The notes below the pieces were generated by a model. That model was not told where the DNA came from and ran no database searches. It saw only the letters and a program-made list of their open reading frames with translations. Source: Pseudobdellovibrionaceae bacterium (GTDB lineage Bacteria; Bdellovibrionota; Bdellovibrionia; Bdellovibrionales; Bdellovibrionaceae). Taken from it: a DNA stretch of 64,000 nt. The translations under genes were made by a program, and so were the position numbers. Shown in pieces: positions 36,974 through 40,405 of this stretch (its first letter is position 1; each line of letters opens with the position of its first letter). The DNA lies in the NCBI GenBank assembly GCA_019637915.1, contig JAHBUV010000001.1, forward strand, positions 2,512,565-2,576,564. The letters are read 5' to 3'.

Positions 36974-38410
36974 ATGAAAAAATCCGCTGTTCTTTTATTG
37001 AGTCCAGTTTTGATGATGGTCCTTGCGTCTTGCGGGGACGGGAAGAAAACGGTTCTGGGCGGGGAGCGTCCCACGCCACCGCCACCGCCTTCGCGGCCGG
37101 CGCCGCCGGATGGGTTTCCTCCGGGTGGGGGAACGCCTCCTCCGCAAGGGCCGCAGGACATGGGGCCTTGGGGAGCTCCGCCGCAACAACAAGATCCGTG
37201 GGGACCACAGAACGGTCCGGGACAGCCATCCGGACCCCAAAACACTTGGCCGCCGACGGCCGGTGGCGGTGTGCCGAATGGTCCCTCGAGCGGGCCGCAG
37301 CCCGGCGGCGGTCTGCCGGGTGGGAATTTGCCGCCGATGGCGCCGCAGGGCTCTTCTGTCCAAGGTCCGCAAACTCCTCAAGCTCCGCAAGGAGGCCTGG
37401 GTGGCGGCGGGGACTTGCCGCCGCCGGCTGCTGGTGCCGCCAATGGTGGGAATTTACCACCGCGCGGGCCGTCTCCCGCTCCCAATGCCAATGGCGCTTC
37501 CCCGTGGACGCCCCCGGCCTTTCAGAATTCCCCGGCTCAGGCCTGGATGGTTCACAATGTCGAACCTCTTCTGCAGAGTCTCGGTCGTTCGCAGCCTTCG
37601 CCGCGCATGATGTCCTCCCGCGTGCGTTTGACTTTGGCTCTCGGGTATTTCAACTACGACGCCAAAGACGGCAGTTCCATGATTTACCAAGGGCAGAATT
37701 ACGGTCGTTACGCGGCCGTGGATCCTTTCTTGCGCTCTCTCGTGCATCAAGTGTTGACCCGCCCCTGCGCGAATTCTTTTTTGCAGATTTGCGGTTTCCG
37801 CGCCGTTCATTTTGATGACGTTGAGGTGCTTTATCAGCGCACCGTGGGCAACGGCCTCTTTCCGGAGATCCGCGTGCTGTCAGGGGCCCTCACGCCCCGT
37901 CACACGGTGAACACCGGCGAGCGCGCTGTCGAGCAAAGAGCCCGGGCGCAAAAGGCCGAGCGCTCATTCAACGCTTCGTTCGCCGATTCGGATCTGGTCA
38001 TTTACGTTGGTCACTCACGCGAAGGCGGCGGACCGGATTTCGCGCCGCCGCGTTTGAAAAACGGCCGGGTGGATTACTCGTCCTATCAAAAGGCCCGCGT
38101 GGGTTCGCGACTGCTGATGGAGTCCTTGCGCTCATCGCAACGCAAGGCGCGCGCCTTGGCTTTGCTCTCTTGTGACACGACGGAGCATTTTTTGAATGAA
38201 GTGAGCCAAGTGGGCACGGCCAGTCGCATGGAAGTGGTCCTCACCCGCGGCAATGTGCATGCGGAGGATCAGACGGCGGGAGCCTTAGCGGCCCTGGATC
38301 TCTTTCTTCGCCAAGGTTCGTTGAGTGGTTTGAGCCAGTTCGTCGCGGCTTCGCAGGTTTTGTCCCAGTCCATGCAACCGGTGAATACGCCGGGCATGTC
38401 GCGCCGCTAG
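36974..38410 (+). CDS. Pro/Gly-rich lipoprotein with candidate clan-CD-like peptidase domain
   Basis: 478 residues. Lipoprotein signal MKKSAVLLLSPVLMMVLASC. Residues about 30-190 are a Pro/Gly/Gln linker (PPPPPSRPAPPDGFPPGGG and similar). Residues about 195-478 are a globular alpha/beta domain: RVRLTLALGYFNYDAKDG, then DSDLVIYVGHSREGG (H347) and RALALLSCDTTEHF (C400). A strand-His followed 53 residues later by a strand-Cys is the layout of clan CD cysteine peptidases (caspase, gingipain, clostripain), though the usual HG is HS here. Peptidase activity is a hypothesis. Neighbouring exported proteins include a subtilase. Confidence 0.68.
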   Translation: MKKSAVLLLSPVLMMVLASCGDGKKTVLGGERPTPPPPPSRPAPPDGFPPGGGTPPPQGPQDMGPWGAPPQQQDPWGPQNGPGQPSGPQNTWPPTAGGGVPNGPSSGPQPGGGLPGGNLPPMAPQGSSVQGPQTPQAPQGGLGGGGDLPPPAAGAANGGNLPPRGPSPAPNANGASPWTPPAFQNSPAQAWMVHNVEPLLQSLGRSQPSPRMMSSRVRLTLALGYFNYDAKDGSSMIYQGQNYGRYAAVDPFLRSLVHQVLTRPCANSFLQICGFRAVHFDDVEVLYQRTVGNGLFPEIRVLSGALTPRHTVNTGERAVEQRARAQKAERSFNASFADSDLVIYVGHSREGGGPDFAPPRLKNGRVDYSSYQKARVGSRLLMESLRSSQRKARALALLSCDTTEHFLNEVSQVGTASRMEVVLTRGNVHAEDQTAGALAALDLFLRQGSLSGLSQFVAASQVLSQSMQPVNTPGMSRR

Positions 38411-38486: not shown

Positions 38487-38897
38487 GTGAATTCATTTCA
38501 AATTTCCATCATGAAGGTCTTGCTGAGTGGGGCTTGTTTCTCCATCGGCGCGACGGCGTTGGCCGAGACCTGCGAAAATGATTGGTCCGTGCTCTCGAAA
38601 AAAGAAGGCTCTTTCCTGAGCCTGACGGTGCGCGAGAAGGGCACGAAAGGCCCGGCTTGTGATCTCGTCGTCCGCGAACTCCATTACATCGAAGGCCTGC
38701 GCGTTTTGTCGCTCTCCGTGTCGCCGGTGACATTTTGTCCTTTGGACGCCGTGGCGGAACGGGAAGCGCGCCTGCAATGGCAGCTTCCCTTCGGTTTGCG
38801 CACGGAAGGAGTGATTCGTCTCGTGGTGAATGGTGAGGTGGCCGGTAACGTCCTCCTTCGGTCCGACAACGTTGTTTTTGATGGAGCTTGCCGATGA
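38487..38897 (+). CDS. Small exported protein coupled to a subtilase
   Basis: 136 residues from a GTG at 38487 behind a GGAAGGGGGA site; an ATG at 38511 lacks an SD. Signal peptide ends ATALA. The mature part is about 110 residues, beta-rich, with four cysteines (ETCEND, PACDL, TFCPLD, DGACR), probably two disulfides. No family recognised. Its stop overlaps the subtilase ATG (ATGA), so a role as inhibitor, chaperone or partner of the protease is plausible but unproven. Confidence 0.68.
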   Translation: MNSFQISIMKVLLSGACFSIGATALAETCENDWSVLSKKEGSFLSLTVREKGTKGPACDLVVRELHYIEGLRVLSLSVSPVTFCPLDAVAEREARLQWQLPFGLRTEGVIRLVVNGEVAGNVLLRSDNVVFDGACR

Positions 38898-40405
38898 AAT
38901 CCCTGATTTTTGCCGCTGTGTTTTTTCCCGTGTGGGCGATGGCCGCTTTGGTGGATCCGCGCTTGCAGAATTTCGCCGCCGCGCCGACCGGGAAGGTGCG
39001 GGTTCTCGCTCTCATGGATTTGAGAACCAGCCGTCCTTTGCCCGTGCGCGCCAGCACCCAGAGCCTGCGTCATTATTTGAACGACGAAATGCAGATCGCC
39101 TGGAAACGCGTTGAGCCCTCGTTGGCCACGGAGATGAGCCGGGGCGAGATCGGCAATCTGAAGTTTTACGCTATCAACCTGTCTTTCACGGCCGATGTGA
39201 CACCGCAAGGGCTGCGCGCTTTGGCGCGGGCGCCGGGCGTGTCGAAGGTTTATGCCGATGCGCCCGTGACCATGGCGCAACCTGTCCGCGTGCGCTCGGT
39301 GGCGGGCGTTCGCAACCAAATGCCTTACGACCTCTTGGCGATGAAGTTGGATGAATTGTGGAAGACCAACCCTGAGCTCATCGGCACAGGCGTTCTGGTC
39401 GGTCACATCGACACGGGCGTCGATGGCCGTCACGGCGCTTTGGCCGGCAAGATTTCCTTGTTCTACGATGCGGGCAAGAGCCGCACATCGGATCCCTATG
39501 ATGCGGACACTCACGGCACGCACACGGCGGGCACGGTGGCGGGCGCTGGGGTGGGTGGCGCTCCCATGGGCGTGGCGCCGGGGGCGCGTTTGATCTCGGC
39601 CGCCGCGTTGACGGGCTATGATGACATGTTGAAATCCATGAGCTTCATGCTGAACCCGGACGGCAAAGTGGACTCCAGTTTGAAGCCGCGTTTGGTGACG
39701 AACTCCTGGAACTGCCAAGGGGCACCGGATGTGGAGCTGTTCTACCGCGCCATTTCGGCCTGGGAGGCCGGCGGCATCCTGACGGTGTTCTCCGCGGGCA
39801 ATTCCGGTCCTCGCCCGCGTTCCATCACCAAGCCCCACGAACACCCGCTGTCCTTCTCGGTGGCGGCGACGGGTCCGAACGGCCGCATCGCTGACTTCTC
39901 TTCCCGGGGCCCGGGCGTTTTCAATGGACAAGACACGCAAAAGCCCGATCTCGGCGCCCCCGGCGTGGACATCATCTCCGCGGTCCCCGGTGGCGGTTAC
40001 AAAGCCATGTCGGGAACCTCGATGGCCGCGCCCCACATCGCCGGCTTGGCGGCGATCCTCTATCAAGTCGATCCCAGTCTGACCCCCGCGAAGATCCGCG
40101 AGGTCATGTTGCGTGCAACGGATTCTGTTGATGAAAAAGGGCAACCGCAGGGCGAGCCGCGCTGGAACCCGGTGTTCGGCTTCGGTCACGCCAATGCGTT
40201 GAAGGCGGTCAGCATCGTGAAAGCGCAAATGGGCGCCCGCGAACGCCGCTGGGGCCAATTCATGGCGCCCGCCGTGGACCTGATCAAGGGTTTCCAAGCC
40301 ATGACGGATCTGGGAACGAACTTCGAATCGGATGGGGACCCATCCGAAGTGTTCCAGACTTTCGTCACGGATGAGAGTCAATGGCTGCAGGGCGAGCTGA
40401 TCTAA
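38894..40405 (+). CDS. Exported subtilisin-like serine protease (S8)
   Basis: 503 residues with signal peptide (MKSLIFAAVFFPVWAMA). A prodomain-like region (about 20-135) is followed by the S8 catalytic domain: D173 in HIDTGVDGRHG, H207 in DTHGTHTAGTVAG, the oxyanion Asn in FSAGNSGP, and S376 in SGTSMAAPHIAGLAA. The C-terminal 80 residues lack a known domain. As an exported endoprotease with an intact active site it may digest prey or surface proteins. A terminator follows at 40459. Confidence 0.95.
   Translation: MKSLIFAAVFFPVWAMAALVDPRLQNFAAAPTGKVRVLALMDLRTSRPLPVRASTQSLRHYLNDEMQIAWKRVEPSLATEMSRGEIGNLKFYAINLSFTADVTPQGLRALARAPGVSKVYADAPVTMAQPVRVRSVAGVRNQMPYDLLAMKLDELWKTNPELIGTGVLVGHIDTGVDGRHGALAGKISLFYDAGKSRTSDPYDADTHGTHTAGTVAGAGVGGAPMGVAPGARLISAAALTGYDDMLKSMSFMLNPDGKVDSSLKPRLVTNSWNCQGAPDVELFYRAISAWEAGGILTVFSAGNSGPRPRSITKPHEHPLSFSVAATGPNGRIADFSSRGPGVFNGQDTQKPDLGAPGVDIISAVPGGGYKAMSGTSMAAPHIAGLAAILYQVDPSLTPAKIREVMLRATDSVDEKGQPQGEPRWNPVFGFGHANALKAVSIVKAQMGARERRWGQFMAPAVDLIKGFQAMTDLGTNFESDGDPSEVFQTFVTDESQWLQGELI

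Follow-up and report, generated by a model that had tools for sequence, protein, structure and literature searches.

A predicted exported cysteine hydrolase with a clan-CD-like domain from a Pseudobdellovibrionaceae bacterium

The gene and its surroundings

The window, a 64,000-nucleotide stretch of contig JAHBUV010000001.1 from a Pseudobdellovibrionaceae bacterium, contains an ORF at 36974-38410 on the forward strand that starts with the ATG at 36974 and encodes a protein of 478 amino acids. The ORF is not a chance occurrence: its domain, used alone as a query, is matched in 63 of 196 related genomes, and its motif residues never vary among 83 distinct homologues. A sequence-only reading of the locus had described a lipoprotein anchor, a Pro/Gly/Gln stalk and the residues H347 and C400 spaced by 53, all of which are confirmed from the sequence. 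The segment DLVIYVGHSREGGGP contains H347, and ARALALLSCDTTEHF contains C400. The stalk comprises 30% P, 22% G and 10% Q, these three residues contributing 62% of its composition vs 19% in the domain. Antisense ORFs overlap the stalk region. The features discussed below are as follows.

36974..37033, forward strand: lipoprotein signal peptide with the lipobox V16-L-A-S-C20 (LASC), acceptor Cys20, then G21 and D22
37067..37531, forward strand: Pro/Gly/Gln stalk, residues 32-186 (155 residues), defined by composition
37532..38407, forward strand: clan-CD-like domain, residues 187-478 (~290 residues), from the model and the top VIA-align rows (SAVED-CHAT, C11)
37721..37723, forward strand: Asp250, candidate S1 residue
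37766..37768, forward strand: Cys265, predicted disulfide with Cys273
37790..37792, forward strand: Cys273, predicted disulfide with Cys265
38012..38014, forward strand: His347, predicted catalytic base, 83/83, two residues past model strand 155-159 (DSSP)
38015..38017, forward strand: Ser348, covaries with Ser399
38018..38020, forward strand: Arg349, invariant, 83/83
38168..38170, forward strand: Ser399, partner of Ser348 by covariation
38171..38173, forward strand: Cys400, predicted nucleophile, 83/83, two residues past model strand 208-212 (DSSP)
38888..40405, forward strand: subtilase (S8) neighbour, Pfam Peptidase_S8, E 1.4e-43

The gene order is kdsD, the peptidase-like gene, an ORF of no known family, the subtilase and kdsC, with kdsB and pyrG in the same stretch. 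The subtilase had been reported to adjoin the gene, and its Pfam assignment holds, with the one 136-aa ORF (38487-38897, forward strand) intervening. The closest relative found (G001, 47% identity) also has a subtilase nearby, identified by Pfam in its neighbourhood, and a kdsD-like gene, read from the start of its sequence. A serine peptidase encoded next door as a conserved activator is not supported, as S8 genes were seen near it in the window and in G001, which are close relatives, and trypsin genes at L042 and L043. In these two loci the trypsin-family gene (Pfam) lies directly upstream on the same strand (L042:7003-7926, reverse; L043:7522-8487, forward), and L085 and L087 have neighbours that fall, by BLAST and not Pfam, in the same cluster. 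Other neighbours common to 6 to 9 loci represent Bdellovibrio-type synteny and a response-regulator cluster, leaving a HEAT-like partner, described below, as the only widely shared neighbour. At Bdellovibrio-type loci (L034:5738-12601) an imuA-like gene and a gene for an error-prone DNA polymerase lie downstream of it.

Distribution and named families

Of 368 genomes from the phylum, 103 had a match at E 0.001 to a profile built from 53 sequences, the weakest of these being partial matches to distant families. Matches were also found in 6 of 294 genomes from the group of an Elusimicrobia MAG. The named loci nearly all carry labels of Bdellovibrio and its kin, including Bdellovibrio bacteriovorus strain kdesi (L080), with two Elusimicrobia MAGs besides (97 pattern matches, 52 confirmed). 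In the Elusimicrobiota-group members L201-L203 a long hydrophobic, probably membrane-spanning, region follows the peptidase-like domain. The window genome carries one copy, and a scan of genome contigs with the window protein alone returned no relative. A phage origin is unsupported, with no relative among 227 pattern matches in viral contigs.

The 83 homologues analysed here, a count that includes the query, differ from one another in their last 200 residues and derive from loci L001-L123 only, to the exclusion of domain matches without an extracted locus, distant-branch sequences and L110_6761_8149. A hydrophobic N-terminus was detected by a crude test in 73 of the 83, and a lipobox-like motif in 6, a pattern that reads as export being general in the family and the lipid anchor and long stalk not. 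The long tether proposed earlier therefore stands for the window protein but not as a family trait, as the long stalk is restricted to a few members and the majority of homologues are without it. The 47%-identical relative mentioned above (L003) also carries a linker, with 27% PGQ ahead of the residue matching G224.

Scans of Pfam, NCBIfam and PADLOC gave no family for the window protein, the names MTBP_mid and allophycocyanin being chance-level noise, and sequence searches of the PDB returned nothing relevant. None of 41 members scanned scored above the curated cut-off of Pfam C50, CHAT, C11 or C14; of these four only the separase family C50 appeared, weakly, in 3 of the 41 (best E 0.016). 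When 128 genomes were searched with C50 there were 26 matches, all below the cut-off, of which 5 fell inside family genes (G001, G007, G013, G076 and G110), more than the small share of the genomes taken up by these genes would give. Nine profile-profile runs against C11, C14 and CHAT all returned probabilities under 0.5%, none significant. In five of them, which share inputs with the rest and are not independent (A3-C11, A3-C14, A1-C14, A1-CHAT and A6-CHAT), His347 and Cys400 were both aligned with the template His and Cys motifs that we take to be catalytic. A literature search covering few subscription journals and no bioRxiv preprints turned up no account of this family. The family is unnamed in the Pfam and NCBIfam libraries searched and is clan-CD-like with a changed signature.

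Conservation and covariation around the His and Cys

G346, H347, R349 and C400 are invariant in the 83 homologues; D250 and Q321 are each kept in 82, as is G224, for which the remaining sequence has a gap. The conservation of the two predicted catalytic residues, which the sequence-only reading had asked to be checked, is thus complete. Both C265 and C273 are present in 78 of the 83 sequences and neither is ever seen alone, which suggests a disulfide. Another pair of Cys residues is present in 47 of the 53 sequences of alignment A3, the window protein having neither of them. C400 is the sole Cys of the window domain outside the covarying C265/C273 pair, and one unpaired Cys fits an exported protein with a single, presumably reactive, Cys.

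The residues that follow H347 and precede C400 are coupled. Positions 348 and 399 are Ser/Ser in 63 sequences, Ala/Ala in 18, Trp/Ala in one and Ala/Gly in one, with no example of Ser/Ala or Ala/Ser; taken singly, position 348 holds S 63 times, A 19 times and W once, and position 399 holds S 63 times, A 19 times and G once. By APC-corrected mutual information this pair ranks first of 25,200 column pairs. Mapped on a tree of 81 of the 83 sequences (without the two sequences that have W/A or A/G), built by a quick method and containing several long branches, the two positions underwent 11 and 10 changes, respectively. All four supported independent pairs were concerted, giving a sign test p of 0.125, too few pairs to reach significance; there are 10 independent pairs when unsupported branches are counted. 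Because S348 and S399 covary most strongly of all pairs, we read the coupling as a sign that the His and Cys strands touch at their ends, with 348 and 399 neighbours in space. The Ser/Ala pairing fails in distant relatives, where L183 combines HA with SC, and a second family (family B, below) has HS with GC or SC.

The usual His-Gly of clan CD enzymes is commonly assigned a role in the oxyanion hole, and the HS found here instead of HG had left doubt over the original assignment. That doubt is answered by position 348, which is never G in the 83 sequences and, with one W as the exception, is S or A, nearly always in step with position 399. Because the two positions switch together, Ser/Ser or Ala/Ala, the HS is, on this evidence, the family's own signature. 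The His-Gly...Ala-Cys signature of clan CD is absent as a whole, its Ala-Cys half occurring in 19 of the 83. A Gly before the catalytic His, a clan CD feature according to PMC12445089, is present as G346 throughout. The coupled replacement of Ser/Ser by Ala/Ala beside the dyad also offers a way to learn how a clan CD enzyme might do without its customary His-Gly.

The GHSREG of the window protein resembles G-x-S-x-x-G, and could be read as the nucleophile elbow (GHS) of an alpha/beta hydrolase in which Ser348 is the nucleophile. However, Ser348 is absent in 20 of the 83 sequences (Ala in 19, Trp in one) while H347 and C400 are constant, the second Gly of the elbow is off by one, and the window protein has no Pfam hydrolase match, making such an enzyme extremely improbable.

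Predicted structure

An AlphaFold2 model of the window domain, computed with 52 homologues (m5627f59f052b), has a pLDDT of 88.7 and a pTM of 0.90. Along the chain, strand 32-37 and helix 64-76 come first, then several strands in the region 90-117, and helix 132-152; strand 155-159 then leads to GH161 (H347), helices 182-201, strand 208-212 and SC214 (C400), after which come helix 216-231, strand 234-237 and helix 244-261. This predicted order of elements fits the caspase/haemoglobinase fold as PMC4357240 describes it. His precedes Cys, and each comes two residues after a strand has ended, in keeping with clan CD, where the two strands belong to the central sheet (DSSP of the model, sheet order aside).

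The comparison with known folds that the sequence-only reading had proposed placed three clan CD chains at the top for the window model. Among the 50 rows listed from the VIA-align re-ranking, the best was SAVED-CHAT (8tl0; Z 10.7, 180 residues, 3.4 A), followed by the C11 peptidases 6n9j (Z 8.2, 188 residues, 4.0 A) and 6mzo (Z 8.0, 186 residues, 4.5 A). Caspase-4 was at rank 49 (Z 5.8). No separase, legumain, gingipain or MARTX, and no C13, C25, C80, C84 or C123 chain, appeared among the rows listed, an absence that excludes nothing. A second model, of the fusion protein L120 (pLDDT 90.2, pTM 0.89), aligned over residues 238-465 with SAVED-CHAT (Z 9.4, 159 residues, 3.4 A), which was the sole row of the 50 listed whose range starts inside the domain. 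Foldseek by itself gave neither model a match reaching E 0.001. The caspase/haemoglobinase fold is thus indicated by resemblance between models and known chains, short of proof.

The top Foldseek rows for the window domain were flavin- and GTP-binding folds, and from VIA-align rank 4 on the rows were unrelated GTPases (Z 7.0 or less), as would be expected of a Rossmann-like nucleotide- or flavin-binding protein whose His and Cys are structural. Such a protein is nevertheless very unlikely, given that no P-loop was seen in the sequence, that the protein is exported and has a disulfide-like Cys pair, that the invariant His and Cys have covarying neighbours, and that the clan CD rows rank above the GTPases.

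Among named systems, CHAT is the closest in structure, providing the best VIA-align chain for the domain in both the window member and L120, and in two of three CHAT profile runs the dyad was set on the His and Cys motifs of the CHAT set. CHAT proteins have His-Gly, are cytoplasmic and work with sensor or TPR partners; the present family, by contrast, has HS or HA with SC or AC, is exported, contains a Cys pair and has no Pfam CHAT match. CHAT was matched in none of 59 related genomes. Clostripain-type C11 peptidases resemble the window domain in fold, and one of three profile runs aligned both dyad residues, but the family has no Pfam C11 match and the profile probability was 0.2-0.3%. A separate, genuine C11 gene is present in 49 of 128 related genomes, the window genome having none. 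YabG is a bacterial His-Cys protease proposed for clan CD without sequence homology, according to PMC12445089; it differs in being a sporulation protease with Asp after the His, and is set beside the family by description only.

The HEAT-like partner

Neighbours were counted at 72 distinct loci, of which 3 were at a contig edge; the window and some other loci are absent from the count, their gene having been displaced by an overlapping ORF of greater length. In 27 of the 69 assessable loci an exported partner resembling HEAT repeats is co-encoded or fused. In 24 of these (L054, L102, L109, L110, L114-L119, L121-L123 and others) the peptidase-like gene is directly preceded, on its own strand and with an overlap of 4 to 82 bases (ORFs as called), by a gene for an exported-looking helical protein, and in three further loci (L058/L120, L096 and L104) partner and peptidase-like domain form one chain. 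Of six partners scanned, that of L102 matches Pfam HEAT (E 2.7e-6) and HEAT_2 (E 3.1e-6) and five had no match. In the L120 model, residues 28-218 form helices matching HEAT/ARM chains with Z up to 11.6, a value that helical repeats reach easily. The window gene is without a partner, kdsD lying upstream and the Pro/Gly stalk occupying the N-terminal place.

The combination of partner and domain can be likened to separase, whose plan is a helical-repeat part joined to a caspase-like part (PMC4626109), and the weak C50 matches in family genes, all sub-threshold, are a further point of likeness. Separases differ in being large eukaryotic proteins, and the window protein lacks a repeat region. Co-encoding of a HEAT-repeat-like protein in many lineages, as occurs with scaffolds, would also suit a regulatory or binding protein that retains the fold and keeps the dyad for structure. 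This is distinctly unlikely in view of the invariance of the dyad in 83 of 83 sequences, whereas dead relatives tend to lose one residue; in pseudo-orthocaspases Tyr and Ser replace the dyad, as reported in PMC6426788.

Proposed activity

The window protein is most likely an exported, lipid-anchored cysteine hydrolase, probably an endopeptidase, with a clan CD fold, from a family unnamed in the libraries searched, its catalysis being predicted; we assign this reading a probability of about 0.7. The earlier proposal of a clan-CD-like enzyme is supported by the fold resemblance, the invariant H347 and C400 and their covarying flanks. Cys20 would anchor the protein in an envelope membrane, and the stalk may let the domain reach out, so that the enzyme would work within the envelope or on the cell surface. 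His347 would activate Cys400 for attack on a peptide bond, with Arg349 and Asp250 helping to hold the substrate. Asp250, conserved as D in 82 of 83 homologues, opens model helix 64-76, the first long core helix, and Asp163 of gingipain R is situated on the first core helix (PMC4357240). Clan CD endopeptidases choose their cleavage site by the P1 residue, and if Asp250 acted like Asp163 the enzyme would prefer a basic P1 and cut after Arg or Lys, a guess that has somewhat greater odds of being wrong than right.

The same fold and dyad could support chemistry other than proteolysis, on acyl, ester or isopeptide bonds, or as a transpeptidase or ligase on the envelope. Sequence searches tied the family to no peptidase whose activity is known, and the His is followed by a strongly conserved GGGPDFxPP loop, of which we know of no counterpart in clan CD peptidases. 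The closest folds in VIA-align are, however, proteases, and non-peptidase chemistry is considered unlikely. Caspases, separase and gingipains, all of clan CD, serve as weapons or as molecular switches. In a phylum of bacterial predators, a so far unnamed branch of predicted, exported endopeptidases, represented in B. bacteriovorus strain kdesi, offers a defined gene with which a role in predation or envelope control can be pursued.

Related branches and a possible superfamily

The weakest matches to the 53-sequence profile led to family B, comprising proteins of ~420 residues with GHSGLGGNLD and GCSSYSYY motifs. Its loci are the following.

L170-L181: family B, e.g. L171:1094-2347, reverse strand
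L110:6761-8149, reverse strand: family B

In 12 aligned members G306, H307, S308, G309, L310, G311 and C341 are invariant. Family B was matched in 75 of 196 genomes, some of these matches (E 1e-4 to 1e-7) being hits back onto the window's own family. The idea that the window genome also carries a family B paralogue was rejected, as G000 and G001 have no match. Pfam and NCBIfam gave no name to any of 10 distant-branch proteins scanned. On a reading that is rather less likely than not, these proteins may together represent a Bdellovibrionota-centred superfamily of exported clan CD peptidases with the signature H[SA]...[SGA]C and several deep branches, among them the window's family and family B. 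In one large branch an exported partner with HEAT repeats, fused or encoded in overlap, would control the peptidase, which would make the pair an analogue, on the envelope side, of separase with its helical superhelix and caspase-fold protease, perhaps acting on the prey or on the predator's own envelope. Further branches (L184 and L186-L188) contain GHSR..RGP or GKGP, with the Cys motif 42 or 104 residues after the His, and L187 has two in tandem.
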